Assembly (NCBI GenBank): GCA_950295325.1
Contig: OX485808.1
Span: 33,133,180 to 33,197,179, forward strand
Source of the DNA: Polytrichum commune
Lineage: Eukaryota > Streptophyta > Polytrichopsida > Polytrichales > Polytrichaceae
DNA length: 64,000 nt
Direction: 5' to 3'
Notes under the pieces: model-generated
What the model saw: only the letters and a program-made list of their open reading frames with translations
Databases searched by the model: none
Told to the model about the DNA's origin: nothing
Shown: positions 4,779 to 64,000 of the stretch, in pieces
How the letters are laid out: each line of letters starts with the position of its first letter
Numbering within the stretch: the stretch's first letter is position 1
Program-made: the position numbers and the translations under genes

Positions 4779-4795
4779 ACCATACCGTCCATTTA

Positions 4796-5760
4796 TCCAT
4801 ACCGAGAGGATGGGCTAGGTGGCCATTTTGTGAGGATTCAGATTTCAGGTGTAGTTTTTGGTTTGATATATATCTGAAATGGGGCATCCTCTCGGAACCG
4901 AGAGGGTGGGCTAGGTGGCCAATTATGATAAATATGAGTTTAACATTAGTGTGAAATGGGGCACCCTCTCGGAACCGAGAGGGTGGGCACGGTGGCCAGA
5001 TTTTGAAGTTTCTGAAATCAGGTGTAGGCGATTAAGTGTGGATTCGAGTTTGACATTAGTGTGAAATGGGCACCCTCTCGGAACCGAGAGGGTGGGCTAG
5101 GTGGCCAGTTATGATAAATCTGAGTTTAACATTAGTGTGAAATGGGGCACCCTCTCGGAGGGTGGGCTAGGTGGCCATTTTTGTGAGGATTCAGATTTCA
5201 GGTGCAGATTGTGGTTTGATATATATCTGAAATGGGGCACCCTCTCGGAACAGAGAGGGTGGGGACAATGGCCAAATTTTGAAGTTTCTAAAATCAGGCT
5301 AAAGAGCGGTGTTTCTGGTTTAAAAGTGTTCGGGGCCATATTTGATATTTTTTGAAATCAAGTGTAGAGTTTGGATTCAGGTTAGAAGAGTTCGGGCCCA
5401 TAATTTGAGTTTTTGAAATCAGGTGTAGGCGATTAAGTGTGGATTCGAGTTTGATTTTAGTGTGAAATTGGGCACCCTCTCGGAACCGAGAGGGTGGGCT
5501 GGGTGGCCATTTATGATAATTCAGATTTCAGGTGTAGTTTTGAATTTCAGTTTTGTATCAAAATGGGGCACCGTCTCGGAACAGAGAGGGTGGGCTAGGT
5601 GGCCAAATAGTGAAGTTTCTGAAATCAGGCTAAGAGTGGTGTTTCTGGTTTAAAAGTGTTCGGGGCCATATTTGATATTTTCTGAAATCAAGTGGAGTTT
5701 GAATTCAGGTTAGAAGAGTTCGGGGCCATAATTTGAGTTTCTAAAATCAGGTGTAGGCGA
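4796..5760. repeat. Subterminal tandem array of hairpin-forming repeats in the MULE
   Basis: About eight copies of an imperfect unit of roughly 80-110 bp. The core is a perfect or near-perfect palindrome CCCTCTCGGAACCGAGAGGG followed by 'tgggctaggtggcca'. Cores are seen near 4799, 4888-4905, 4964-4983, 5072-5091, 5149-5163 (shortened), 5239-5258, 5473-5492 and 5572-5590. Spacers alternate between two types ('gatttcaggtgtag' and 'tttaacattagtgtgaaatg'). The array sits immediately upstream of the transposase start. It could be its promoter/leader or a set of transposase-binding sites; this is inference. Confidence 0.8.
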
Positions 5761-9677: not shown

Positions 9678-12600
9678 TCAACAAGTTGAGGGCAACAGCA
9701 CCATAGATAGAGATGCTGCAAAAACAAGGGCCTGGGCATATCCATTGGATCTGCGCCCACCTCCTGCTCCCCCTCCCCCTCCCCCTCCACTGGCATTACC
9801 AGCAGTGGTAGCAGCAGCCGCAGAGCCTGGGGGCTTACTACCCAGTCGTCTCTTGTAACGCTTCAACACCGAAGCCAGGTTTTCTTTCCCTTTAGGAAAG
9901 GCAACATCGCCAGCCGCAGTACCCGTTCGACCTTTCCGAGAACCGACAGCTTGCTCAACCTCCTTAATCATTTCCAAAAAAACGGCAGCACTAGCACCTC
10001 GTCCCTTTGAGCTACTCGAATTGCGGCCCCATGGCCAAGGATATGGGTATGTCTGAGGGGAACTCGAATGGTTATGTTGTGAATCTCCATTCAAATAGTC
10101 ACGTAGGCTCCCTTGTTTGATCAAGGGCCTTCCTCTTTTACTCAGGATGTCTCCTGATCCCGCATCTAATACACAGCTGCACATGGCTGACACTGTTCGT
10201 GGCTTTGAAAAAGCTGGCTCAAGTATACCCTGCACAAATATGAAGCCAATTTTAGAAGGAGAATTTCATATGTTTTAGTTAAAGAAATTAGATAAACATA
10301 AAAGAATGGACTTGACCACACAATAGACAGACATTGTCTCTATATTTCCACTTGGTGAAGAGAGAGATCTATCATACTAGTCCAGATATAGTATGTGCTA
10401 CTCTAAACAACAGATGGTTTGGCCTGTAGGATAGCTGGAGTCTCAGCCCAAGAAGATTAGAGAGCTGTATGCATTCATACCTGGAGACGATTCAGCACAT
10501 ATGTGTACTTGCCCCACAGCTCTGGTCTGCTTTCCATCAAGGACAGCTCAAGAACACGGTGCACACACCATACGCCAAAGCTGATGAGCAGACCCCTCCC
10601 CCATACACAGGCCTCACTACAGTAGCAGACCCTGCGCAACTCATTGCTGGATTTCAAAAGTGAGGCGACAGGCCGACCATGAACTTGCCAGCGCTCAGAT
10701 CGAGATAATCGATCAGGAGGATCTGCTTCCAGATGCATCTTCTCCACACCTGCCACGGCAGCAACAAGGTCTTCATCTGACCCGTTGTCAACCCGGAACA
10801 ACCATTCCGACCCATCCAAACACAGCAGCTTACAAAGGCAGGCACGAAGGTTTTCCATGATCTCACGCTCAGAATCAACCCCACTGCCCAAATTGGTGGG
10901 ACTGTTTGCGTTTCCTTCTACCTTTGATGTGGACCGACCTATACTACCGTTCCGACCAGAACCTGAACTTCCAGCTTTCGTCCTCAGAGATCCAATTTCA
11001 GTTCCGCCACCAAAAAGTTGCTCAAAGGGCTGCCGAGACCACAACGAATTTTCAGTCTGTGCGGACTGGATGGAGAATCCATCTCGCCTTGACTGCGAGG
11101 GAGAAATTTGATCGAAGGACAAAGGTGCCCTCTCACCAGGTGCCATACCAAGCCTTCCGATTGGTGAGTGCCCTAATGAACTGGGAGTATGAAGTTCACC
11201 TGTGGCTCGAAATACAAGAGGGTCCCAAGACCTGGAACCTGCTTCTGGCGTGTGTAGGTCTCCTCCATTCATGGAACTCCTGGTTATTGCATTCATTGAA
11301 AGATGGGAGGACCGGAGAGACTGGATAGTGCTCTCAAGTGAGGCATGCCGATCAAGATGAAGACTTCTGCCAAATCCATGAGAGCCTTCCAACTCCCTGT
11401 CAACACCTAACCCAGAAAGTGATTGGCCAGAATGTGTGCGTGATGTCCCAACTGCATGAATGTCCAGGATGTTCCTGCTGGACTTCACAGCAGGGCTTGA
11501 AGTGGCACTCCTACCACCAAGAAATGAGGGAGATTGATAGCCATGAATTGTGGCTGGCTGTCGTTCAAAATCTTCAGAATAGGATGGTAGGCGCATACTG
11601 GAGTATTGCCGCTCCCCGAGGTATTGAAGTTCCCCTGACCTGCCAGAATAGTCTTGCGTAAATCCAGGAAACCCTGAAGAGGTGGAAGCAGTAGCATGGG
11701 AGTGTGCTCTGACATATGCATCCATCTGGTCCACTTGGTGACGAAGACTGCTGGTTGATTTCGACATTCCTAGATGTGTTGCATACCCACTACTTCCTTC
11801 TCTGTCTACATAGTCCTGCCTCCCTGTGTAGGCACTATTGTCACCTGATCTAGATCCATTGCCACCCTCATAGGCCAATCCTGCAGCTGACCTCCCACTT
11901 CCGGTACCTCGATTCGCCACAACAGGTTGTCCATGCAGGTCAAATAATTTCCCCCAAAACTCATCGAGGTATGCAGCAAATTGTCGACGTGCAGCTCGAC
12001 CTAGCCCTGAAAGTCGTGACAAGCTTCCACTTCCACTCCCACCTGCGTCACTTGTGTCACTCCTCCCACCCAGACTTCTAGCTGAACCAGTACCTTCATG
12101 AGCAAGATTACTGTAACTGCCTCCCAGTCCACCTGTGGACAATGTTTCTACAACAACATCCTCATGTTCCAAATCATCACCCTCATCTTCATCTTTATCT
12201 AGCAGGTCTGCGTCGGCTTCAGCCTCTGCTTTTTTCAATGCAATAGACTCCAAATCATCTGCAGTTAACAACAACTGTTGTTCAAGCTTTGGACCATCAG
12301 GTATCAGCGTCAATTTCACAGTCGCTGGAATGGTTGCCTCAGGTGGCCTGGCTGCCTCCTCAGAGATCACCAAGGAGCCATCTGCAGTCACGGGTTTCTC
12401 ATGTACACTGGTAATCAGCAATTTTGAATGAGGTACAATGTCTTCGCAGCTTGGCTCTGTTGCAATGATTTTACTGTCTTCAACATTAGACAAAACCTCA
12501 TATTTATTGACGGTTGCACTGGAGTCTTCAACAGGCACAGTGGAGTAATCCACAACTGCCACCACATCATTCAACTCTTCTGATGGTTTTGGGACCTTAG

Positions 12601-15600
12601 TTTCTACCTCACTGTCACCATAATCGCTTGAAGGCAACAGAACACCTGTATTTCTAATATCTTCAGGGACTACTTTGCTATCCAGAGACTCCTGTACTTC
12701 AATAGGCTTCAAAACTTCAACTGGAGTGATCAATTCACATACTTCAATTAAATCACTGGTTTTCACAATCTCAAACTCCTTGGCTCTTGAATCCTCAACA
12801 TCACTACTAGAACTGCTGACAGCTTGTACCTCCCAGCTTTCAGGTTCAACCGGCTCAAGGACAACTTCAGCTTCAGGGTTGTTGACATCAGCCCTTGGTG
12901 GAAAATCCATGACCCCTAATCGAGGAATCTCTGCATTTCCTTGAGCACGATCAGGTATGGCAGCATCAGCCCTTGGCACAAATTCTACACCTGGTAATCG
13001 TGGTATATCTAGAGTTTCCAGCATGGTTTCCTCATTCCTCTCAAAGAGTTCATACTCTTCAACCCACTTTCTTTCCATTGCTATCCTGTCCAGCCGAAGA
13101 GGCGTCACTATCAACCAAACTAGAAAACCAACACTCAGACCTATTCCTACCAGAACTAGAGCAAAAACTGATGTGTTGAGGGTCTCTTCACCATAGTGGC
13201 CAAATGAATCTGTGCCAAGAAGATTTTCGAGGTGCGCAGCGAATCCTGCAAACTCGTCAATCTCCTCTAGCAATAGATCAAACACAAGCCAGATATTGGC
13301 ACCTACCACCAATGCAACAGAGATCCATGCCACACTCTCAACCACTGAAGAGATTCGATATGCTCCCATTCGAGCTTCAGAAGCTGATGCTTTGATAAGA
13401 GGAACTGCAGAGAATGGAAGCTCCAGGGCGATTATGATTTGTGAGAACACCAAAAGTTGGTATAAACCTTCACTGCCATAATGCCATGCACAAAACACAG
13501 CTGGAATCATTGCAGCCCCCCTGACTAAGGAACGGTGGAGCCATGGCTGCATAGTCATATCTAAAAACCCTTCCATGGTGACCTTTCCAGTGAGGGTTCC
13601 TGTAAGTGCTGATAGCTGTCCGGCACAAAGCAGAGCCAACCCAAAAACTGCTGGTGCAATTGAATTGCTCAGGATCTGCATAGAATACATTCTTGTGAGT
13701 GTTGTGCAATAACCAAGAGAGTAAGGACCTGCATGGAAAAAACAACACAAAGAAAATGGGGAACGCAACTAAAAACCATTTCATTCTATTCAATTGCTCC
13801 AAAATAATCAAACCTGTTCTAACGGGATGAAGTGCATCAGAACTCTAAGGACCGCCTCAGCTGACATCTAACCATGATTTTGTAGAAAAAAGGCCAACAA
13901 CCTTGCTGTCTGAATAGAATGAACATGCATTTTGCATTGAGGGGGGAGAGAACAAAGCACCTGCTCCAGTAGTGTATTTGCATCCTGGAGATTGAGAATG
14001 ACCAGCCCTACATTATGAAAAGTAGTGGCTGCAACCACCAATACAGCTATATTGGCAATCATCGCTATTCCAAATGCTCTGGCGGTGTCCCACAGATTTT
14101 CTTGACATACAATGTCAATTGACTGAACCCTTACATTCTGTTGCCTCTGTTGTACACCAGACACCCCACAGCAAATCAGAAGCAATCCTTAAACACATCT
14201 AAGGTAGTGCCAAATATTACAAAGAAACATTCAGCTCCTAACTAAAAATAGAGAAGAAATATGAATCTCACCTGAAGCAGAGCAGAATGAAGGTAAAATG
14301 TATGGGGGACGACGTTGGCACCAAGAAGTCCAACAGCAGTGTAAAGGGAGTCTCCCCGAACTTTGGGCCACATCCCACCCACAATGGCAGTTGCAGACGG
14401 CTGGCTAAGTAATGTGCCAAGCCCAAAGCAAACAAGGACCACTCCTACTATACTCCCCGCAATTAGCTCCACTCTCTGAACACCCTGAGGATGACCAGGT
14501 CTCATCTGCTTTAGAATTGACTCAAATGCAATTGAACCCTTAATTGAATTGTGAAAACAATATAGCTCATATAACAGCAGAGCCTTTCCAACAGACCAAC
14601 ACAGTGCATAACATACACATTCTGTTCTCAGGGACATGTCCAGCAACAACTACTGACACTAACCTCATCCTCACACAGCAAGCAATACATATGACATGCA
14701 AACCCCTAAACAACCAATCTCACAACTGTAAAACAACACACAAAATGAAAATGAATAGGAAGTCTCACCACAAAAGGGAGAATCACAGGAAAAAGGATGC
14801 CATCGAGAGCCAACACAAGAACACTAGGCAATATTGGGATCCCTAGAAGCAGGTTCAAACCGACAGCTGTTCCTAGAACCTGCAACATTTCAACACAAAC
14901 TAATTACAAAGTGCAGGCTAATCAAGATTTCGTACATCATTTCAAAGATTTTCAGTCACTGTATATCTAAATTTACTGCAAGTGTGCCATGGGAAGATTT
15001 TGCAGGGCTAAGTAATAGAAGTATGTTTAAAGGCACAGAAAACTCAGAAGAACGTCATGAATCATCCACTCCCTTGACAAATGAAACTGGGCGCACAATA
15101 TGCAAAGCAACAATGACAAAACCTACAACGACTAACAGATTCACAAATCAGAACAGGGTTTCTCCTGGCCCTAAAAAATGCAGAACCTGTGGCTCTTATG
15201 CAAAACTTCCCTTAAGTTGCGTTTAACTCGCCAGAACATAAATCCCAAGATGAACCCTAGAAGGAACTTAATCGCTTCATTTGTGCAGGTATCATCAATT
15301 CTCAATCTTACATTCCTCTTGTCAAATTCATGTTGTTAATCTTACATTTACACACGAGAAAATGAATGCCCACACTTGGAACACTGGAATTTACCATAGT
15401 CAGATCAAGAGCAACGATCGAAACTTCAGAAAGCATCCACAACAACAGGCAGACCGGACTTGGATAATCCTCTCGGCATATCTGCACCACAAAAAATAGA
15501 AGGTCCACAACAATACACATAATCAGTACACCACCATGACCTAGACAGGTATGTCTTACAGAAGGGTGCTGAAGTACAGGATGGCCATAAGATTCCCCGC

Positions 15601-50502: not shown

Positions 50503-50985
50503 TGTGTGCTCTCATCAACCTCTCATCCACAAAAGCTCTGCAAAATCATACCTTAAGAGTCTTTGCTGCGAAAGTAAACAAGCTCTTCACCTTCGATGAT
50601 GCACAAGAACTTAGACTTTGAGGAAACTTTACTCTGTATTGTGGGCTTTGCAAGCATGAAAGATTTAATTTGTCTCTCAATTGAGTGAGTGATTATTTGT
50701 TGAGCAATTCTAAGTTATTTCCTGCTTCACAGTGCGAGAAGCATCTTCCCTTCTTCAAGAACTACTTGATTTACGCACCCAATTTTGTACTTTGGCCTCT
50801 TCGAATGGTGCACATCGATGACTACTAGCTTTTGAGGGAATTTGGCATTTTTGTAACTCAACATTGTGAGCTTGGGAAATCCGGGAGGCTTTTACATTAA
50901 GCTGTAGCACCCCTAAGAGGAAGAGAGTTTACCTACTTTTACTTTTTTGAAGCAACTTTTGCCCTCATCTTTTATGTTTTACAAA
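50503..50985. other. Upstream region of the PLP gene
   Basis: This is the presumed 5' UTR/promoter on the minus strand. No other feature supported. Confidence 0.4.
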
Positions 50986-52031
50986 ATTTGTGACCAAGAA
51001 TGGAATATGCTCTCGTAGCATCTCGCCCACCTCCATCTGTGCTTGTTGCATTTCTTTCGGTTCCATCCGCATTTGTTGCATCTCTTCTGATTCTATCTGC
51101 GTTTGTAACATCTCTCCTAGTTTCATCTATGTTTGTTGTATTATTGTCTTATTTTGTATGGAAACAATGTGGAGATCGTTTTCATCAAAGCATTGGTTCC
51201 TACAAAAATCCACCCCGCAAAGAAAAATGAAGTTCCCGGTCGAAAATATGGTCTTTTTAAATATGATGCATCTTTCATGTGTTGTACAATCTCATAGCAT
51301 CTCTTCCAATTTCATTTCTTCATGGTTTTTGTATATAAAAAGCGTGTTGTGATTTTTTTTTAAAACATTGATTGCTAATAAAAATCCATCCCACGAAAAA
51401 AAATGAAGTGTTCAATTGAACATATATATATAAATTCTTGTTATGGTGCATCTTTCATGTGTTATACAATCTCGTAGCACATATCCCGGTTGCATCTGCG
51501 CGTGTGGCATCTCTCCTGGTTCCATCCGCGTTTGTTGCATTTATGTTGGTTTTGTGTACAAAGAGTTGTGTTGCAATCTTTTTCATTAAAACATCGGTTC
51601 TTAACAAAAATCCACCATGTGAAGAAAAATGGAATGCTCAATGAAAATAAATTATAAAATACATATAATGCATGTTATGGTGCAATTTCCATGTATTACA
51701 CAATCTCATTGCATCTCTCCCGGTTCCATGCATTACACAATCTCATTGCATCTCTCCCGGTTCCATGCATGCTTGTTGTAGCTCTCCCAATTCCATCCAC
51801 ATTTGTCATGGTGCACCATGTTTCTTTCAGCTTCATTTGTGTTTGTTGCATCTCTCCTAGTTGATTTTGTGTTTGGTGCATTTTTGTTTCATTATTTATA
51901 GGAATAGTGTGGATATTTCTTTCACTAAAATATTTGTTGCTAGCAAAAATTCATCTTGCAAAGAAAAATGAAGCGCTCAATTGAAAATAGATTTTCTTTT
52001 GAAATAATGCATATTATGGTGCATCTTTCTT
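50986..52031. repeat. Two-level satellite interrupted by the LINE
   Basis: A short unit of about 25 bp ('ccatctgcgtttgttgcatc') sits inside a higher-order unit of about 200-230 bp. The larger unit contains 'aaaaatccacc....gaagaaaaatgaagtg', then 'tggtgcatctttcatgtgtt', then 'acaatctcatagcatctctc'. At least four higher-order copies start near 51200, 51370, 51605 and 51945. The last is cut off after 'ggtgcatctttc' at about 52030, where the LINE tail begins. Confidence 0.85.
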
Positions 52032-52238
52032 CTATAGATAGATAGATAGAAACTCTGGTCCCTTTGAGGGGCCGGCGTGAATAGAGTGTCCGTTCGTAAT
52101 GCCAACAACCCGATGTCCACAGGACATGGGGAAGCTGGGACAAAACTACTCTCCTCTTTCGAGGATGGACACTATAGTAGCCAGGGAACAAATAACACGG
52201 GCCCATCATGGCCCACGGGGGTGTATGCCTTTTAAGTA

Positions 52239-52334
52239 TAGCTAGTGGTTTTGTTGTAAGGGTGTACGCCAAGTCATGATTCCTCGGTTGGTTGTGTGAG
52301 GATGTTTGGGTTAAGACGGTCCGGGTTCGATTCC
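52239..52334 (+). promoter_or_regulatory. Pol III A/B-box pair in the LINE 3' region
   Basis: TAGCTAGTGG (52239-52248) fits an A-box and GGTTCGATTCC (52324-52334) is a perfect B-box on the plus strand, opposite to the LINE. Spacing of about 85 bp is long. It may be a SINE nested in the LINE 3' region, or chance. Confidence 0.4.
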
Positions 52335-52499
52335 TGTTGGGTCCGTTTGATCGCCTAATGTGTAACACATGACTTGGTGCTGCAAATGAGTAAAAGGTAG
52401 GAAATTTGTACCAACCAACCGGCACCAATCCCTCATCCTGAGCTGTATATAGTTATTAAATATTATATAAGTTTTTGAGTTTTATGGAGGGTCTAAATT

Positions 52500-52994
52500 T
52501 TGGGGGAGCGGTTGGTGGTTTTCGATCCTCCTTTTATGAAGGAGGATGGACATGGCATATTATATTGCAATGGTATTAATGTTTTTAAAGGTATTTTTGA
52601 TGGTAACCATGGGTATTTTGAGGTTGTTCTCTAGTATTTTCATAGATGGGATGTGGGTCGTAGCTCGGGCCCCGGCTGTGATGACAATAAGTGGTTCGAT
52701 TTTCCATCCTCTGGAAGCGATACTATCAATTAGTGGTTTGTATTTGTTGATTTTTGCTTCTATTGTTTCTGGGGAGAATCAATCGTTGCAGTATGTGAAT
52801 TCAATAAATTGTATGGTGAGGTTAGGGTCAATGTCAATGGGAGGGTCATTTTGATACGGTAACCCTTTAACGCAAAGTATATCAGGTCGAAATCTTGCGT
52901 TGCAGTGACATCTTTGTGTGTTACATGTGCAGGGGAGTAGCCAGTTTGGGACAGTGTTTTCTTGGGGATTATTATTGAAGGTACCGGCATTCAT
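52500..52994 (-). other. C-terminal PD-(D/E)XK / restriction-endonuclease-like domain of the LINE
   Basis: CTCNTQRCHCNARFRPDIL gives a Cys/His cluster followed by Pro-Asp. After 27 residues comes IQFIEFTYCND, then a frame break, FSPETIEAKINKYKPLIDSI and ITAGARATTHIPSMK, ending YAMSILLHKRRIEN. The D...E-x-T pattern, strand/helix order and C-terminal position resemble the nuclease-like domains of some large LINEs. The usual Lys of E-x-K is Thr here, so catalytic competence is doubtful. Confidence 0.6.
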
Positions 52995-53399
52995 GAGAGT
53001 AAAGCATCAGGATTTCTCGGACGAGATTAGGAGCTTCCTAATTTCTCCGACTGCTTTGTTATGTCTTTTAATTCTAAGTGAGTGTATATGTTGTTGTTTA
53101 CATTTAAGTAGTACATGTAGCCTGGTGTCTGGTTCGTTTGAATTGCATATGGGGCACGTAATAGAGGGGTATCTTTGGTGGCCGAAGAACATTTGTTTCC
53201 TAGCATTACCCATGTATGTTCCTGTGCGGAATTTAATAAGACATGATTTTTGTTTGTCGGTGATTGAGGGATTTGTCCAGAATTCGTTTGACATTTCTTT
53301 GTCTATGTCTATATTTTTTGTCCATTTACACGTGTTGGGGGTTTGTGTGGCCATGATTGCTATATTGGTTTTCCTATCGTATTTTTTAATTTGTTTTTC

Positions 53400-53970
53400 T
53401 AGGAATCTTACTGGGCCTTTATCTGGGACGTCTGCCATCGAGGCCCAGACGTCTTTTTGATAATAGTACGGGATGGCGTGGGCATGTTCGTATGGGTGGA
53501 TGGCAATTCTATGTTTTAATTCTAACCCTTCTTTTGCTAGTTTATCTGCTTTTTCATTACCGTCAATGTTAACATGTGCTCTAACTTTGTATAGTGTGAT
53601 TGGTTGTGTACGGTTTTGAAGGATTTTTACCATGGAGTTGAGTGTGGTTTGGTCTGGGTGGCTATTATGGAGAGTGGGGTGTTTGATTTGTGTGTTGAAT
53701 AAGTATAGTACGTTTAGACTGTCTGTGAATATGAATGCGGGTTCATTAGGAAATTGTGTATTGATGATTCTTAGTGTTTTGTGTATAGCCATCATTTCTG
53801 CGCGCAGTATGTTTTGATGCCCATGGAGTCTTTTGGCGATATTTAAGCCTTTGGGGCTGTAGATACCGTATCCAGCTCTTTCTCTTCTCCATTCCCCAGG
53901 GGCAATTTCTTTGGGTTTTATAAAGGAACCATCCGTGTAGTAGCTGAATTGGGGGTGGAATTTTAGCGGT
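53400..53970 (-). other. RNase H domain of the LINE
   Basis: The four acidic positions are readable: FSYYTDGSF, ILRAEMMAIHKT, AFIFTDSLNVLYLF and NIDGNEKADKLAKEG. It is followed at about 53180-53090 by a zinc-finger-like CPICNSNEPDTRLHVLLKC. Confidence 0.85.
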
Positions 53971-54129
53971 AGATTAGTGTGGTAGTTTGGAAGTTGTGGG
54001 GTAGGGGTATTATTGTGTGGGATTGTATTTGGGTAGTTTGATTTGGCCCATTTTTTACTAGGGTTAACGGTGATGTTTGGAGGGGTGGGTGGTGCAGTTT
54101 GTGTGTGACTTTGTAGTATTTAGAGGTTA

Positions 54130-54520
54130 TTTGCTGTGTCGTTTATTAATTTCATTTGTTCGTAGGTGCCTATGTTATTGTTTTGGCGATGGATACAAAA
54201 TATTTGCATGGTAGATGGTTCTTTTCTTGTGATATTGAGCTCGGGGGGTATTGTGGGTTCCTCATACGTGATCGTATCAGCGGCGAAATGGGCAATGACG
54301 TGTGTGTCTGGGAATGGCCTGTGTGTGGGTTGGAGTTTTGGTACCAATTAGTATCCGGAGATATAAGTATAGTGATTGTATATGGATCATTTTGGGCCGC
54401 TATGCGCGCCCAGTGAATAGCTTGTTGTAGGTATGTTGTATTATGAGGGTGTGCGTAACCGATTCCTTACCATTTATGGTCAAACGCTTTACCTAGGGAT
54501 CCAAATATTATGTCTCGCGA
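54130..54520 (-). other. Extra conserved-looking segment between RT and RNase H
   Basis: Ignoring one stop at 54467-54469, the minus strand reads FSRDIIFGSLGKAFDHKW, then GIGYAHPHNTTYLQQAIHWA, TITILISPDTNWYQ and AHFAADTITYEEPTIPPEL. The spacing of Gly, aromatic and Asp/Asn-Trp residues suggests a folded enzyme-like domain rather than a linker. I considered a methyltransferase-like fold but cannot support it from motifs. Unidentified. Confidence 0.5.
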
Positions 54521-55899
54521 GAATGGTGAGTAGAATTGGGTGAATTGTGTGGGGCATGTAACTGGGGATGAAAAATATGAATGGTTAATATTGAATGTTG
54601 TAATCAGGAGATCTAATATTTGGGTTGGTATTGTATATTGGGCTCGTTTGAGTGGGTCATTTTTTGGGATACGGTATTTGTACTTTTGGTATAACCAAAT
54701 AATTTCAGTTTCGAACGATTGGGTAGATGGTTCTAGACCGTGTGTGTTGTTTTTTGCCAATTGGTATTGTTTCCATAGCCATGTTAGTCTAGCTTTTGGG
54801 ATGGTAATGAGGTGTCGGCCATTGTCTTCGTATATGTGAGCGACATCGAATTGTGTTTGGATGGTATCAGAGTTTGTTTCGATGTTGTTTTCTGGGTTGC
54901 ATTCATTAATAAAGATATGTGCTAGTGGAATTATTGTGGTTGGTGTGACGTATCTTGTGTCTCTATGTTGTTCTGTGGAGAAATAGGCATTACTTATGTT
55001 TGAAAAATATTTGTGTTGTCTTTCTTTGTAGTAATGGATAAGTAGGTCTGTGTTGTGATTACATGTGTTGGCTTCACAGTAGGGGTATAGGTCCCTTTGA
55101 GTTCGCCATTTGTTATATGTGTTGTTATTTGTTGTAGTCCATTGACATAAGTACGACGTGACTGTTTTTTTTATTCCGTTATGGTCATTGGATTGTTTTT
55201 GTTTATGATCGATTATTTTGTATATGGGGAATTGTCGGGGGTCTTTAAACATGTTGTTGGGAGGAGGGGGTAGAGGGGGGATGGGGAGGTTAGGGGGGTG
55301 TACGGGGGCGGTTGGTGGGTGTGGTACGATATTGTGGTGTCTTATTATATATTTATTTTTTAGGGATCTTGGTGGATGGTGTTGTTGGCATGGTAGGGGG
55401 CATTGATTACAAGGGGGGTGGCAAAATAATTGATTAGCTATGTTAAGTGCGCTTTTGATAAGTTTAGAAGGAGTGGAGTGGTAGATTTTGAATTCGTCCA
55501 GGTTCATTAGAGTGGTACCATTAGGCATGGTAATTTGGTCTAGTGTGATTATATTATGTACAAGTAGTTTGTGTAGTAATTTAAGTGAGGTGTTGGGATT
55601 TAGGCCATGAAGCATTTGTGCTTCCTGCATTCATGCAATTTCAAGTGGGGATGGGGTTAGTAGGAAATTGTTTATTGTACTTTTTAGGTGGACTCCAGCT
55701 TTATGTTTGAGCAAGAATAATGTTCTAGTGATGGGTGATCTAACACAGTGGTGGTATTTAATGCGGGTGATTTCCTTAGAGCCCCCATATTTGGCGAGTA
55801 TGAATTGAAGTAGACCAACATATATTTTCCCAATTCTACATTTATCATTGAGGGCGTTTTGTAGTTGTTCTCCAATGCATCTTAAATAGGCATTTTGTA

Positions 55900-57150
55900 G
55901 TGAGAATGCTTCGATTCCGAATAGATTGTGTGGGAGTTGTGTAGCGATGTTAGATGTGCATTTGGATATTCCGCATATCGTTTTGTGAAGTGCTATGATT
56001 TTTTTATCGAGTTGTTTGATAGCTGGTATGGAGTATGGCACTGCGTAGAAGCTGTATGCTATTCCAGCACGTATGACTGTATCTGCCATGTTTATTTTTT
56101 GTTTCATAGTAGCTAGGCATGTTACAAGGGCTTGACACTGTTTTATTAGTTTAGCTGTAGTGGTATTTATTTGTGTTTTGCATTTGAGTGATGGTGCAAG
56201 ATTTATTCCTAGATACGTGTATGGTTCATGTTGGTTTAAGACTGGTATAGGTTGGTTTCTGTAGTTGATATTGGTAGATTGGATTAGGGCTTTAAAGGTT
56301 GTGGGATGAAGTTTGGATTTGTTTGGGCATCTAGTTATTGCGCACTTGGGTATTCCAAGATCCATTCCTGCCCATTCGCAGAATTTGTCTAGTTTGTTGA
56401 ATTGTGTTTGTAGTGTCTCTAGTTTATTGGCGATTGCTGCTAGGTCATCTGCATATGCTGCTGATGAGATTTTAATTTTAGATGTACCAAAAGTGTATCC
56501 ATTATTCCCTTGTTGTAGCCATTTGAGGAGGGGTTCTAGGAATATGATAAATAGATATGGGCTAAGGGTATCACCTTGTATTGTACCTCTTTGAATGGGA
56601 ATTGGTAAGGTTTTACCGAAGTGTTCACCAGTGAATATTGTTGAGGATTGTGAATATATGTTTCCTATGAGATTTATGGAGTCAGTGGGATATCCCAGAT
56701 CTTTCATTATGGCTAAAAATCTGGCGTGATCAATGGAGCCGAAGGCGTTTTTGAAGTCAATGTAAAGGATATATATATCTTGGTTCGTGAGTCTTGCGTC
56801 TTCAAGCGCTGCGATTAATAATTGGATTTGTCTAGAAGTGCTGCTCTCTGCTCTAAATCTTTATTGATTATCGTGTAATATTTGGTATTTTTCTCCATAC
56901 GCTGATAGGATAGAAGTTAATGTACTCGTGTAGAATTTATATATGGTGTTAGCTAGTGTAATAGGTCTATGGTTTGTTAGTTGTGATGGGTTACCTTTTT
57001 GTATAGTAAAACTGTTAGACTGGTTTTCCATGATGCAGGGATTTGTTTTTGTTTATAACAATGTTTAAAAAATAAGAAGAGTAATTTATGGAAGCATGGA
57101 GGCATGTTTTTTAGAATTGAATTGGGTATTTTGTCTGGGTCTGGGGGTTT
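55900..57150 (-). other. Reverse transcriptase domain of the LINE
   Basis: Motif 1 NKPPDPDKIPNSILK; motif A YIDFKNAFGSIDH; motif B QRGTIQGDTLSPYLFII; motif C AAYADDLAAIA; then GIPKCAI and YTYLGI. A frameshift near 57000 (LLYKK/GNPSQLTNHRPIT) and a stop at 56861-56863 interrupt it. Confidence 0.9.
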
Positions 57151-58244
57151 GTTATTATTTAGGTTTTTAAAACAAAAGTCGTATATTTCTTGGTCAAAAT
57201 ACGTGTGTAAAGGGGTTTGGGGTTCTCCTCGTTTGTCAATGATGTATCCATCTAAGTCATGCCATGGATATTGCCGGACTCCACATGTGCAGTGTAGTGG
57301 GTGTTTATTTTTATATTGGCACGTGGGAACTGTAGGACGGTTACTGATGGATTGTTGCGTGTATATTTTTGTTGCGATGTCTTCTGGGTTAGTTAATATA
57401 TTGTTTTGTCTATCAATGATGGAGTCCAGGAGTGAGGTTTCAATGTTATTGAAGACTTTTCGATTTATCTTTTTGGGTTTTTTCATACATTTGACGGTAT
57501 TTTGATACGGCCTTTAAAATGCAGTGTTTGGTGTATTTTGTGGTGATTTTTCTGGCTTCTTTATTTGCATTTTTTGCGATGGTTGCTATGGCATCAATCC
57601 ATTCAGTAGGAGATGCCGTTGTAACAGGTGGGTGTGGGATGTTTGTGTGTTGGTGGTTTCGTATATTGTTTAGGATGGGGTATGCTTGCCAGAGTGGATC
57701 GTATTGTACAATGTATATGGTTTTCCTGATGAGGTGATATGTGTTGAGGTGTCTTTTTCATTTTCTCGCAAGTTTGCGTGGCAAAAACCCACCTTGTTGT
57801 GATGTTCTGTTCGTAAGGTTGGGTAATGGGTCTGCTTTACAGGTTTTTTCAATTATTTCTGAAATTTTGTATACAATGTGGTCGAATGTTGTACAGGCTT
57901 CCGCCCATTGATCCGGGCTTAAGTGTTGGTGGTTTTCAAGTAGGGTGGTAAGGGCTTTTATTTGTGCAGAGTTTTCTTCGAAGAATGTTATGTTGAATTT
58001 TTCGATGTTTTCTGGTGGTATTGGGTTTAGTATTCTAGTTGGTGACGTGTTTGTGGGGGGTGGGGATCTGGCTATAAGGGTGTTGTGGGGGATATGTAGT
58101 ACAACTGGATAATGGTTTGAGTTTAGATTCATGTTTGTGTTTGTGGTAGAAATGAATTTGTTGTTGTCTGGTGAGTGAATGTGGAATCCATCTATTAGAC
58201 TTGTTGATGTATAATTATAGCCTCCTTGCCTGGAGATGCTAGTG

Positions 58245-58865
58245 TTAGTTGGGATATATTCTAGGTTGAGTGATGCGGTGAAAATTTTCCATTGGTAATC
58301 TTCTTCTTGTGGAGGGGGTGTTAATGTTGTTATTTTGTCTGCGTCTAAGTGCGATATCTCGGTTAAAGTCCCTACATAATGTATACATGTGATTGGGGTG
58401 TATAGTAATTTCGTTAGTGATTTCGTTCTTAAGGTGTGGAATGAGGTATGTGTCTTCTAAGTGTGTAGGCATGTACATGTGTATGATTAGCCAAGGTATT
58501 AGTGGATGGTTATTTATTTTAATTATTTGTAGGTATGGGGATATATTTACTGGCGTGGGAATTTTTGTGATATTCCCAGAGAATGCATATTTCTTGTGGA
58601 TAAGTGTGAGTAAGCCTCCTCTTCCGGGGGTATAAGACATTATTTGTTGTATGCATCTTGTGAGTGCATGTGTGTTGTTGAAAATGAATTTAAATTCCGG
58701 AAATAGGTTTTGTATGTATTTTGTAGATTTATTTGCAGTTAGTTTGGTTTCTTGGATATGTATGATTGCTGTGTTGTTTAGCGAGTTGTTTATTAGGCTT
58801 TGTAGGTTTGGTAATGATGTGTTGAGTGATGACGTATTCCATGTTATTATGTTTGTTTCGTGATC
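58245..58865 (-). other. APE-type endonuclease domain of the LINE
   Basis: Motifs in order: NIITWNTSSLN, IIHIQETKL (catalytic Glu region), RGGLLTLIHK, IIHMYMPTH, and CRDFNRD in place of the usual GDFN. It continues after a frame break with SLIDGFHIHSPDN and NLNSNHYPV (the SDH-like motif, with Asn for Asp at one position) near 58130-58200. Confidence 0.8.
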
Positions 58866-59507
58866 GGTGTCGGTGTCGGTATTAATTCTTGGGGTTGGTG
58901 TGGAAGTAGCTGGGGGTAGGGGTGGGTGTGAATATTCGTTGATGTTTTCTAGGCATCGGAGTGCTTCGGTGATCAATTGATTTGGGAGGAAGGGAAATTT
59001 ATTTTGAAGGGTGATTGGTGTTGGTGTAGTATCTTGGTTGCGAATAAATTCATATATCTCTGTGTGTATTGAATTTTTTGGGTATATTATATCTTGATTG
59101 TTTTCTACAAAAGTTGTGTAGGGGTGAGGTGTTGATATATGCCTTTCGGGGGGGTTGGTGAGGTTGGCCAGTCTGATAATCAATGTGTTCGTCCATATGT
59201 TATTAAAGTGGTAATTTTGGGGTTGGACTAGTATGTTATTGCATGTGTTTATTGAGGGGTGGATGGTGATGATTAGAGCGTATAGCATATGGGTTAGTGG
59301 TGATTGCCTTTGTGTTTGGATATATTGATGTAGATGCGGGTAGGTGGTTATTGCTTGAGGGTGTAATGGGTGTGTGTTTTTTAGTATGGGGCCAAATGTG
59401 TTTGCTATGTGTTGGTATTCAGGTTGTAGTTTTATATTGTTTGGAATGAAGTAGATGTTGGCTCTTTTTTTGTATGTAGCAGGGTATGTATGTAGGATGT
59501 TAGGCAT

Positions 59508-59534
59508 TGGTCCGGGGTTGGGTTCTATGTCCCC
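59508..59534 (-). other. 2A-like ribosome-skipping motif in the LINE
   Basis: Residues 93-101 of the first frame read GDIEPNPGP, preceded by KLELLKC. This fits the D-(V/I)-E-x-N-P-G-P consensus at every fixed position. In known cases the ribosome skips the last Gly-Pro bond and releases an upstream peptide. Here it would separate an about 100-residue leader from the APE/RT protein. Such motifs are documented in trypanosome and some animal non-LTR elements. Activity is inferred from the motif only. Confidence 0.8.
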
Positions 59535-59782
59535 GCATTTTAGCAATTCTAGTTTGTTAATAAAGTAGTATCCGTGGGAATGGAGTGTTTTTGGATTTTT
59601 TATGTTTGTTTTTAGATATATTATGATTGTGAACTTGGTTGTAGTAAAGAGGTTAGGTATAGCGGGTATGATGTTTTCTATTTGTTTGGGTGAGAAGTGT
59701 GAGTTTGTATTTTTTATAGATTTTTGGCTTGTTATTGAGTTAGGTCTCCAGTTATCTATGAAGTGGTATGTGTTATTATTTG

Positions 59783-60108
59783 TGTGGCGAGGCCGGTAGG
59801 CCGAGGCCATTGTATCTTTTGGGTGAGGTTGGTATTTTGAATGAGGGTTTAATAGGTATTTGAAATAGGGTTTGTGATGGTGTTTGATGTTGAGGTGAGG
59901 TTTATTTAAGGTGAGTAGTTTATATTTATTTTTTGTAAATAAATTAGGTAAGGCAATTATTGTTTTTTGTGTAGTTTTTGGGAGGTAGTGTATAGGTTTA
60001 GTATGTTGGTGGGTAGGCTTTGTGATTGTGTTAATGATAGGGTTGAGGGAGTGGTAGTGTATATATCGTGTTAGTTTTATTTTGTGGCGAGGCCGGTAGG
60101 CCGAGGCC
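59783..60108. repeat. 26-bp direct repeat spaced exactly 300 bp at the LINE 5' end
   Basis: TGTGGCGAGGCCGGTAGGCC plus GAGGCC occurs at 59783-59808 and 60083-60108. The first copy covers the start codon region of the polyprotein frame. The repeat is GC-rich and partly self-complementary (GGCC ggta GGCC). Confidence 0.9.
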
Positions 60109-61924
60109 GTATTGTGTACTTTGTTGTATTGGATAGGATATTGTTGTATTGTGAGTAAATAGATTTGTTTTTGTAAGGTGTTGGGGGGGGTTTTCTTTGT
60201 GAATTTTTGATGTTATAGTATTCATGAATACTATAGGTAGGGTTTCATTTTTAGTATATATTAATAATTTAATAATGTTTTTTATTTTTAGTATATAAAT
60301 ATACTATAAGTAATTTATAATTGTACGCCGCCGGGATGTTTGTCGAAATTAGTTTGTCAAGTCCATATTGTTTTCAATTTCCGATATGTCCGGATGAGCC
60401 GCTTCGATAGCATCCAAGGTAATCTTCATTTGCCTTTGAAGGAGTTGTATTTGGAGCTTGGAATTCTTGTTTGACTCCGCTTGCACATGGTCGGCATAAA
60501 CTTTTGCCTCTTGCACAATCTCACCTTTAAGGTTCACCATTTCCTTTCGTATTTCATCCGTCCCATTTTTTACCGCTGCTTCTACCATCTTGTTGAGATC
60601 TTTGTTGGTGATGTTTTGGTGCGGTCCATTCTCCAGAGCTTGGATGGTGTTTGCAAGTGCGGTGTTCACGTCTGAAAATTCAAGTCTAACTAGCTCTTCT
60701 TTACTAGGTGCATTTATTCCGTCTAGACTTTTTGGATGGGGGATAAATTCAACATATTTACCAAATATTTTTTCATTTTTCTTAACAAATTTCTTGTAGA
60801 CAAACGAGTTGAGGCATTGGACATTGCATGAGCCCGTATGCTTCCCGTTCTCAAGTCTAAAGTAAAAACTGAGAACATTTAGTTCTCCCATGCATTTTCG
60901 GATTCCTTCTTCGATTTGCATGGTTGTTTTTACCTTATTGAGGTTACGGGCAATTAGAATGAGTGCATTCTTTCGGGCTTTATCATCTTCTGAGAGTTTT
61001 TCGTTACTTGCAAAGTTTACATCTACTATTTCATTGAAAAACGAAAGTTTGAGTGCTTTAATTCTTTTGGCTTCTTCTGGAGAGGGTGCTTTAATCCAAG
61101 CAAACTCTGCATCCGCCGATTTTTGCACATTCGTTATTTCAAAGTCAAGGCCTCGTCGAAATCCATCCCCAACTATTTCTACAAACAAATCATAGCATTC
61201 TTTACCCTTGATTGACGGGGTTGTGACTTTGATGGAGAGCATGGATGCAATTGCAATGGTATCAAAGGATTTACACACTTTGCCTATAGCATGTGTAAAT
61301 TGGCCAAGCTTGAGGATGAAAGGTCTCAATCCACAGAGAAGGCCATATCCATCCATTTCAAGGTTTTTAAGGTGGAGTTTAATAATTCCACTCCATCTTT
61401 TGGTCCCATGAATACAAAGGACAGCTATGGGCTCTCTTAGGACTTCCCCGACCTCTATCCTCATTGTTTTTAGTCTCTCCTTTGTTAAGTTGAGTATCAC
61501 ATCTCTATCCAATTCTATTTTTTCAATTTCAAAATGGATAGATATGTGATAGTCCAAAGCAAATCCATGGTCACCCACTTCCACATCTGAAGGAATGTGC
61601 ACTATTAGAAAATCATGACCAAATCAACAAAGAATCAACAGATCTTTGTCGATCCGGGCACTGCAATGACCGATTTCACTGATTTTTGAATTTTTGTAAA
61701 AATCAACAGTTTACTGCCTACATTTTTGTTGATTAGAATAGTACAATGACCAAATCAACAAAATTTTAGTAAATGTGAAATCTTTTTTGAATCTTTTTTG
61801 AAATATTCTAGGATCTATTGGAATATTGTAAAATCTTTTTAATTTTTTGCAATTTATGGACTTGTAAGTGTATGGGTATGGAAATAATTACGAATTCAAA
61901 GGTGTTTAAATATTATAAATATTA

Positions 61925-62265
61925 TATTAGTTGATAGTTAATTTTATATATATTAATATATTAATATGTATAATATGTATATAATATATGTAACATATAA
62001 TATATATATGTATATATATGTCTGTATATATATATGTATATATGTATATAATATATGTATACAATATATGTAACATGTATGTATATAATATATAATATAT
62101 AAATATGTATACATTTACAGTAAATATATACAGTATATATTTACTGTAATTATATACTGTATATATACTGTAATTATATAATGTAATTATATATTGTATA
62201 TATTTACTGTAATTATATACTGTAATTATATACTGTATATATTTACTGTAAATATATACATCAAG
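61925..62265. repeat. AT-rich palindromic satellite inside the CACTA-like element
   Basis: (TA)-rich tract followed by repeats of 'ctgtaattatatactgtata' and 'tttactgtaaatatata' in alternating orientation; strongly self-complementary. Confidence 0.85.
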
Positions 62266-62324
62266 TAGGTAGTAAAGAGAAATTAGTGGCCTTATTCTAG
62301 AAAGGTTTAAAACACTTCGTTTAT

Positions 62325-62535
62325 ATCATGTGTGATGTGATGACCTAGTGGTTAAGGCACATTTGTGGGTATCACTAGGTGCAAGGTTCGATTCATGTGG
62401 CCGACACCTTCGGCCTTGGCTCTGCCACCTATGTGAGTGGTAGGTAGTCTATACTTGTAGGTGACGTATATCTTGAGGGTTACTTTGGAGGGGTTAGGAA
62501 TTGCAGATCTGACATTTATTCATTTTTTATTTTTT
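62325..62535 (+). mobile_element. tRNA-derived SINE nested in the CACTA-like element
   Basis: A-box-like TGACCTAGTGG at 62341-62351 and B-box GGTTCGATTCA at 62385-62395. The 3' region ends in a T/A-rich tail before a (TA)n tract at 62543-62562. Same layout as the SINE at 38246-38445. Confidence 0.7.
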
Positions 62536-63080
62536 AATGTTATATATATATATATATAATAAGTTTTTTTTTAAAAATATTTTTGTGACCATATCAACAG
62601 AAAAAATCAACAAAATTGTGTTACATCATGTCCAGGTCAACGCGTCCTAAGTAACAACCGCGACCAACGCCTTTCTGTTGATCCGGACGCAAAATTTTCT
62701 ACTAGTGCTGGGTGAGATTGTAGTGCATTCCCTCCTTACCATCCGTTCGTATGGAAGGCCACTGTTCTTGGGCAACGAACGGAAATGAGGGAGATGACTC
62801 CACCATTTCATGTGCTTCAGACTCACACATATTTTTTTTGACTAACTCAGTGAAAGAAGGTGTTTGAATGAGAGGCATGTTGGCAAATTTTGCAATTGTG
62901 TTCATAGCTTGAAAACCAAGCCAATAGGGGGGGGCGTGTTCTCTCAGTGGGTGCTATTCCTTTAATTTTTTTTTGACTTGACAATACCACAGCAAGCACT
63001 GGACATTTTCCACTTGTAGAATCTATATTTTCATTTTCAAACAACTTACGGGATGATGAGGTTGGAGTGATGGTTGCCAT

Positions 63081-64000
63081 TCTGATATAAGCAAAGCAAA
63101 CAAACGTTTTGTACTTTAGTTTTGAATGAGGTATACTTCTTATTTTCTTTCCTCTAATTCTTTTCCACAAATTAAGTTGTGGACCTCCTAGGAATTGAGA
63201 GTGAAAGAAGAAGTGATTGCATGTTCTAACATCATATGAGTACTAGTATGAGTACAACTTGCATTCATCCTATGATAACACCTTTTCCTATTCATATGAA
63301 TCTTCATATTAGTATTTACAAATTGGTTGTAAGTGCTCTTATGTAGATTATGATTTGTCACAACTCTAACATTCCATACATCTCCTAAGCATTTGAGGCA
63401 AGTATAACTAAAAGCACAAGCATCTACCGTTACTACCACGGATCCATTATTTCTAATGGAACATACATTTATGATATGAACATTAAGGTTGTTATACCAT
63501 ACCTTTGGATTTATGACGTTCTTATATGTGTTTTTAAAGCAAGAGTTTGTAAGGCATTCCCATGTGGTATGAGAGTTGACACTGAGAGTATATCCAGTAT
63601 GGTGTGGCTAGTACTAGCCACATAATGATAACAAGGTAGGTTGCATATGCAACCTTCATTTTGCTTACTATCCTAACAAACCTATCAATGCTATGATGTG
63701 TCTAAGACTATGTGTGTGCCTATGTGCAAATAATGAGAAAACAAATTTACGTGTAAACTTACCAAGCGGATGAAGGGCAGCAAAACTACTTCTACTTTTA
63801 GGGAGCAAAAAAGAAGCTAAGTGCCTAGTTAACTAATGTGTGTGTGTGTTTCTAATTGATTAAGTGTGTATCTACTGTGATTTTAGTTTGTTTCGTTTGT
63901 GTGTGTGTTCTCTATGTGTCTAAGTGCCTATCTAAGTGGGGGTTTTGCATATGCAACCTTCATACTACCTCCTACATAAGAAATTGCTATGTGACTAATT
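63081..64000. other. Upstream flank of the RRM-like gene, no supported gene
   Basis: TTGCATATGCAACCTTCAT occurs at 63641-63659 and 63945-63963 in direct orientation; its core TTGCATATGCAA is palindromic. (GT)-rich patches lie near 63838 and 63896. The minus-strand frame 63188-63439 has no recognisable domain. Confidence 0.4.

Follow-up and report, generated by a model that had tools for sequence, protein, structure and literature searches.

A degenerate long interspersed nuclear element combining a 2A-like motif, a PCIF1-like domain and two endonuclease-type domains in the genome of Polytrichum commune

The question raised by a 64,000-nucleotide stretch of the Polytrichum commune genome (C6:33133180-33197179, in an assembly of 408 Mb and 64 contigs; hereafter the window) is what kind of element lies broken on its minus strand. 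A first-pass annotation had read it as a long interspersed nuclear element (LINE) with two endonuclease-type domains, RNase H and a 2A-like motif, in a plant genome. The present analysis indicates that the window element is a degenerate copy of a LINE with two open reading frames (ORFs), which measures ~12.6 kb in a complete relative on contig C7 (start ~16964358, end near 16951751), and we regard this explanation, including the mechanism set out below, as highly probable. On the minus strand the order of parts is 2A-like motif, apurinic/apyrimidinic endonuclease-type domain (APE), reverse transcriptase (RT), PCIF1-like segment, RNase H, CCHC finger and a likely R2-type restriction-like endonuclease (RLE) (Table 1). 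Pfam matches, motif positions and coordinates mapped along the minus strand bear out the order originally given, and the presence of two endonuclease-type domains, RNase H and 2A in one ORF also stands, with APE in 5/5 relatives, PF00075 in 4/4 and evidence of moderate strength for the RLE. The plant host is supported by an rbcL gene on contig C8, which scores land-plant Rubisco above Chlamydomonas Rubisco in a PDB list. Relatives are named below by locus (L015, L034, L047, L048, L056 and L057).

Table 1. Parts of the element and of its interruption, in window coordinates.
Feature	Position	Strand	Basis
3' tail, (CTAT)4, forming the 3' end of the element	52034..52049	-	(CTAT)n-type tail in 11/11 copies with printed 3' ends
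ORF2, broken in the window copy	52485..60225	-	open in relatives; 2576 aa from ATG in L015
Likely restriction-like endonuclease, PD-(D/E)XK type (RHNK, PD, E, K..KY)	52608..53087	-	R2 profile matches; motif invariance in 4/4
CCHC zinc finger	53097..53156	-	C-x2-C...H...C invariant in 4/4 relatives
RNase H, D-E-D-H-D set including histidine	53520..53945	-	PF00075 4e-14 in the window; 4/4 relatives, best 6.4e-17
PCIF1/CAPAM-like domain; NPPF site reads HPHN	53988..54841	-	PF12237 4.5e-10 in the window; 5/5 families
Reverse transcriptase (YADD)	56162..57165	-	PF00078 1.2e-22 (open 3' part, window), 1.6e-30 (L015); tree
APE-type endonuclease	58064..58859	-	PF14529 and PF03372 in 5/5 relatives; catalytic columns
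2A-like (StopGo) motif, ...LELLKCGDIEPNPGP	59508..59564	-	268 strict sites in the genome, 0 in reversed control
ORF2 N-terminal leader, upstream of the 2A motif	59511..60225	-	weak constraint, dN/dS 0.53 (L015 against L048)
ORF1 C-terminal part, coiled-coil-like end (by eye)	60349..61599	-	no Pfam family above cut-off
CACTA-type insertion within ORF1, CACTAGTAGAAAAT...ATTTTCTAATAGTG, 3-bp overlap	61600..62707	.	
ORF1 N-terminal part, broken in the window	62708..63659	-	733 aa open in L034; start at ~63659
Start of region upstream of ORF1	63660..63947	-	homology to the C7 copy stops at 63947, where a different leader joins

The element proved longer than the interval 52032-60340 first proposed for it, from which ORF1 had been omitted. 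The match between the window and the C7 copy extends through ORF1 to 63947, broken only at 61600-62707, and the element runs at least that far; furthermore, sequence upstream of 60340 is common to all nine other copies with a printed 5' junction (the printed stretch of one of the nine being offset by 100 bases). ORF1 encodes 733 aa in L034, a protein in which no Pfam family scored above cut-off. A protein search with it listed 66 matches of 42-100% identity, from the 61 best of 886 candidates scored, and since 9 of the 66 span all 733 residues without a stop, ORF1 likewise forms a family. The leader upstream of ORF1 contains internal repeats and varies from copy to copy. The insert at 61600-62707 is AT-rich, with tandem TA-type repeats, and its CACTAGTAGAAAAT start, ATTTTCTAATAGTG end and three-base overlap are typical of CACTA transposons; it is later damage, foreign to the LINE. 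Relative to L015, to which it is 96.5% identical over 7727 aligned bases, the window ORF2 has suffered five frameshifting indels and eight in-frame stops, so that the copy is indeed broken, in more places than the seven or so first counted, and two APE active-site motifs have changed (GDFN to RDFN and SDH to SNH). Degenerate tandem-like repeats occupy 50951-52030, immediately past the element's 3' end, and apparently represent the insertion site. Strand asymmetry is strong over 52000-60000, where GC skew is 0.28-0.60 in 2-kb steps and the sense RNA of the element is very G-poor.

The element is abundant and recently mobile. Among the 19 best of 3159 candidates scored, at least 15 are near-full further copies with 95-96% identity to the window element. 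All 11 printed 3' ends, the window's included, consist of (CTAT)n-type repeats followed by differing DNA, and the flanks of the copies read differ from one another, indicating no single target site. In seven of the eight copies for which both ends were fetched, 12-13 bp of the sequence following the tail recur at the 5' end, where up to two or three of the duplicated bases may derive from the tail and the true duplications may be slightly shorter; 56 mismatched end pairs, examined as a control, matched over at most 8 bp. A search with one short word, covering the window from 60001 onwards and a further 2.9 kb past its end, did not find the 5' duplication of the window copy. Duplications of 12-13 bp together with a constant 3' end are what target-primed reverse transcription leaves, and the element thus displays both of the features by which a LINE is recognised.

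ORF2 is open from stop to stop over 2919 aa in L047, 2890 aa in L048 (within the fetched stretch), 2372 aa in L056 and 2131 aa in L057. The L057 frame stops before RNase H, hence RNase H and RLE are counted in four families and the other parts in five. For L015 and L048, the least saturated pair, the ratio of nonsynonymous to synonymous substitution rates (dN/dS) was 0.07 for APE, 0.06 for RT, 0.14 for the PCIF1-like domain, 0.06 for RNase H and 0.08 for CCHC-RLE, compared with 0.53 for the ORF2 leader preceding the 2A motif. The remaining pairs gave 0.03 to 0.39 for the five domains, with dS values that are high and partly not computable. In APE, RT (YADD), RNase H and RLE, the catalytic columns show no variation among the families possessing each domain. 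Taken from these alignments, the ratios indicate that purifying selection acts on every enzyme-like domain, and the low values, together with at least 15 near-full copies, show that the element is not a chance assembly.

The segment between RT and RNase H had been correctly noticed in the first-pass annotation but left without an identity. It corresponds to Pfam family PF12237 (PCIF1_WW), which matches above cut-off in the window (E 4.5e-10) and at E <= 0.01 in 5/5 families tested (best 1.8e-13). Despite its Pfam name, PF12237 is described as a CAPAM-like methyltransferase rather than a WW domain (PMC7641849), and the WW assignment was rejected on that basis. An alignment for profile comparison comprised L001, L002, L003, L004, L005, L007 and L010 (five of them as stop-free sub-stretches), L015 and the window, with L009 and L012 set aside and L006, L008 and L011 omitted for frameshifts. 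The top PDB match of the resultant profile was PCIF1 (6irv), aligned over SP-x2-C, FGS-x-G and the NPPF site, in a list of five sequences made up of two PCIF1 and three RNase H1 entries, the latter retrieved via the flanking start of RNase H. A phmmer search of PDB with the window segment returned 0 matches at E 1. The catalytic motif itself has been lost: the NPPF site reads HPHN, HPPN, FPTD or HPKD in the five families, and HPHN, HPPN or HPHT, in no case NPPF, in the 10 loci that could be read in frame out of a further 12 (L001 and L011 standing outside the count). Conversely, the FGS motif is retained in 5/5 families, as is one proline at the active-site position.

Changes to N553 and F556 are reported to inactivate PCIF1 (PMC10544176), and a single F-to-H change within NPPF of the Drosophila protein has been offered as the reason for the absence of N6,2'-O-dimethyladenosine (m6Am) in that organism (PMC9479742). 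Honey bees, in which F is replaced by Y, are also without m6Am, and the same authors do not blame the motif; with so slight a change present, the link between motif and m6Am is not strict. Loss of NPPF nevertheless makes methyltransferase activity doubtful, and the PCIF1-like domain is probably a conserved domain that is not an m6Am writer. An active enzyme that methylates the element's own cap-adjacent adenosine by means of an altered active site would accord with the PF12237 match in all five families, the dN/dS of 0.14 and the retained FGS motif and proline, but we think it improbable given that NPPF is replaced in the five families and in those 10 further loci, and given the inactivating N553 and F556 changes in PCIF1 and the Drosophila precedent; the candidate role of active m6Am writer was judged unlikely for the same loss.

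The 2A-like motif of the window reads CGDIEPNPGP (59564-59508). The genome contains 268 occurrences of a strict DNA pattern encoding D-[IV]-E-x-N-P-G-P, compared with 0 of a reversed control, and chance occurrence was rejected on this evidence. The strict motif is present in the window and in three of the five families (L015, L047 and, twice, L057), and NPGP in all five. Association with the PCIF1-like domain was assessed with 150 of 697 PCIF1 candidates scored, with 65 of the 68 scored matches from C1 and C2 used, and with 100 of the 268 2A sites listed, the listing ending at C2:64.47 Mb. In 37 of these 65 matches a strict 2A motif occurs no more than 9 kb upstream on the same strand (at 4.7-4.8 kb in 30), compared with a randomised mean of 0.15; the other 28 have no such motif upstream, and no scored PCIF1 match lies downstream of 63 of the 100 listed sites. 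The position of the motif suggests that it may serve as a StopGo site that releases the leader. 2A has already been reported from APE-type LINEs of trypanosomes and animals (Heras 2006; Odon 2013; both via PMC4981915). In L057 two 2A motifs, at aa 14 and aa 281 (C2:36080497 and C2:36081298), each come after a comparable YYTWN stretch, which would fit a duplication of the leader. Elsewhere, a strict 2A at C1:72835527 precedes by ~7.3 kb an RVT_1 match that falls within a repeated-type 1539-aa frame (C1:72842797), possibly a long terminal repeat element with a 2A of its own. Within the ORF2 leader of the window, a GC-rich direct repeat of 29 bp (59780-59808 and 60080-60108, 97% identical) encodes SAYRPRH twice, and an RNA structure or regulatory repeat is possible.

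The identity of the C-terminal domain bears on whether the element has two nucleases at all. RHNK, PD, E and K..KY are invariant in 4/4 relatives. A profile of the four C-termini matched only two R2Bm sequences among PDB sequences, over a stretch running from the finger's second half to RHNK inclusive, and hhalign comparison with three R2 RLEs, of which two were incomplete, gave E 1e-4 and brought that half of the finger, RHNK, PD and K..KY into register, compared with E 0.49 and a probability of 0.1 for a control against the unrelated PCIF1-like alignment. The profile comparison did not show the domain to be other than nuclease-like, the outcome that would have refuted the first-pass reading, and the domain is likely an RLE, as judged from these motifs and alignments. 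HMMER recognised no RLE family in the C-terminal region, and phmmer with the L015 C-terminus returned 0 matches in PDB at E 5. Since known LINEs manage with a single endonuclease, and since the window copy has lost its APE SDH motif, it could be argued that only one nuclease is used and the other is a relic, so that the element functions like any other APE LINE or R2-like LINE. This is unlikely, however, because APE and RLE are strongly constrained in L015 against L048 (0.07 and 0.08) and remain so in L015 against L047 (0.14 and 0.08), and because their catalytic columns are invariant in five and four families, respectively.

The other enzymatic parts were readily recognised in relatives. APE gave no Pfam match in the broken window copy, and was matched by PF14529 (best 3.8e-8) and PF03372 (best 3.1e-7) in 5/5 relatives; for RNase H, PF00075 matched in 4/4 (best 6.4e-17) and in the window (4e-14). 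In an RT tree of 14 rows, with R2, human L1 and four sampled LINEs of the same genome as reference rows, the six rows of this element formed one group (100/100), the four same-genome LINE RTs and human L1 grouped apart (100/99), and three R2 rows formed a third group (94/95); the branch of the element has a length of 1.54, and human L1, L049 and two R2 rows carry a long-end-branch warning. Searched against PDB, the L056 RT scored 2.4e-37 with R2 and 7.5e-20 with the best chain of L1 type, the reverse of the result for L049, a LINE of the same genome (LINE-1 9.6e-43, R2 1e-21). The RT is accordingly placed outside L1 on sequence grounds, and the plant-L1 placement that the first-pass annotation had named as fatal to its reading was not the outcome. 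A scan of viral contigs with the RT gave 13 pattern matches, none of which was confirmed. An ordinary R2-like element was rejected, APE being present. A divergent plant L1, with APE as sole endonuclease and a CCHC region that is merely nuclease-like, would explain the APE before RT, the CCHC motif, the RNase H (also found in some plant L1s; PMC4640811) and the failure of HMMER to find an RLE family in the C-terminal region, but is very unlikely in view of the 100/99 branch on which it was rejected, the opposite PDB preferences of L056 and L049, the invariant and constrained (dN/dS 0.08) RLE motifs aligned with those of R2, and a tail of (CTAT)n rather than poly(A).

For the two-ORF, dual-endonuclease LINE favoured here, the following sequence of events is envisaged. 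ORF1 would probably supply an RNA-packaging protein. During translation of ORF2, the 2A motif, to judge from its sequence and position, would free the leader peptide from a main protein comprising APE, RT, PCIF1-like domain, RNase H, CCHC finger and RLE. This protein would nick DNA and prime synthesis on the element's 3' end, which carries the (CTAT)n tail, a second-strand cut ~12 bp away would generate the duplications, and either nuclease could make either cut; RNase H would then remove the RNA template. The most likely role of the PCIF1-like domain, tentatively, would be to bind the cap at the 5' end of the element's transcript, so selecting full-length RNA rather than methylating it. A bolder proposal, which may well prove wrong and is put forward as a possibility, is that the element belongs to a land-plant lineage of dual-endonuclease LINEs, with hundreds of copies and recent mobility, in which a PCIF1/CAPAM domain was acquired, placed between RT and RNase H, and repurposed for cap recognition, and that, with its 2A-released leader, it represents an undescribed architecture for selecting its own full-length capped RNA.

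A number of results weigh against the favoured explanation. The loss of the NPPF catalytic motif is one, and as a PDB match PCIF1 is marginal (E 0.32). Two of the five families depart from the strict 2A pattern (DIKPNPGP in L048 and DIHPNPGP in L056), and one of the eight copies, on C3, shows no duplication, its real 5' end perhaps lying beyond the fetched stretch. The RLE call depends on the order of the motifs and on profile similarity of modest strength (E = 1 against PDB; 57% probability with hhalign); single-sequence AlphaFold models, the first of them of the window RLE domain, had mean predicted local distance difference test scores of 42.7 and 36.2, too poor to use, and Foldseek with the RLE model gave 0 matches at E <= 0.001 and a metallo-beta-lactamase as top weak row. 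Some of the other weak rows are PD-(D/E)XK nucleases, and none of these is significant. Lastly, the comparison with Dualen/RandI elements was made with published descriptions rather than with Dualen sequences.

It is to Dualen/RandI that the element is likened here, as one that would work in a similar manner and not as a proven member. The Dualen element of green algae described by Kojima and Fujiwara in 2005 is reported to encode a cysteine protease; no protease family was found by Pfam at E up to 1 in L015 ORF2 (searched in overlapping pieces) or L034 ORF1, although a very divergent one could escape. Features ascribed to Dualen/RandI are APE and RLE in one element (PMC4640811, PMC3636483), RNase H (PMC4640811) and microsatellite 3' tails, (ATT)n and (CTATTT)n among them (PMC3747384). 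Each has its counterpart here, the first with moderate RLE evidence, the second in 4/4 relatives and the third as (CTAT)n in 11/11 copies. Conversely, the land-plant host sets the present element apart from described Dualen/RandI, as may the 2A motif and the PCIF1-like domain between RT and RNase H. A table in a 2015 survey places Dualen/RandI in green algae only (PMC4438587), and a 2025 paper annotates it in cryptophytes (PMC12747079); dual-endonuclease LINEs have also been used as evidence for the change from RLE to APE in LINEs (PMC4640811). Titles and abstracts of the open-licence literature revealed no LINE with a PCIF1-like domain and no land-plant Dualen among the matches listed.

Comparison with other systems is equally mixed. 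R2 and other RLE-only LINEs share the CCHC finger and RLE motifs, and the RT scores R2 above L1 chains, whereas the present element differs in having APE (5/5), RNase H, two ORFs, 2A and no single target site. APE, RT and CCHC are shared with plant L1, from which the element differs in an RT lying across the 100/99 branch, the likely RLE, the (CTAT)n tail and an RNase H with H in place of the R reported for archaeal-like RNase H (PMC4640811). The 2A-bearing APE-type LINEs of trypanosomes and animals similarly have D[VI]ExNPGP inside the coding frame (PMC4981915), but here the host is a plant, a second endonuclease-type domain is present and the motif stands upstream of APE in ORF2. PF12237 is shared with PCIF1/CAPAM, the cap-adenosine methyltransferase, whereas in the present case NPPF is lost and the domain is embedded in a retrotransposon protein.

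Two further regions of the window, both on the minus strand, lie apart from the element. An open frame of 1097 aa at 10475-13768 resembles a plant EIN2 Nramp-type protein, and the open frames at 2383-4814 resemble a MULE/MuDR-type transposase.

As regards the wider significance of the element, the many young copies in this land plant, whose two nuclease-type domains are both under selection, open to testing the question of why such an element keeps two. The presence of natural 2A motifs in the genome of a plant is of note beside a 2026 survey that found plant viruses to make no natural use of StopGo (PMC12846837). A cap-methyltransferase-like domain within a LINE would suggest that the element recognises its own capped RNA directly, and the combination of 2A, PCIF1-like domain and two nucleases shows how elements of this kind gain parts.

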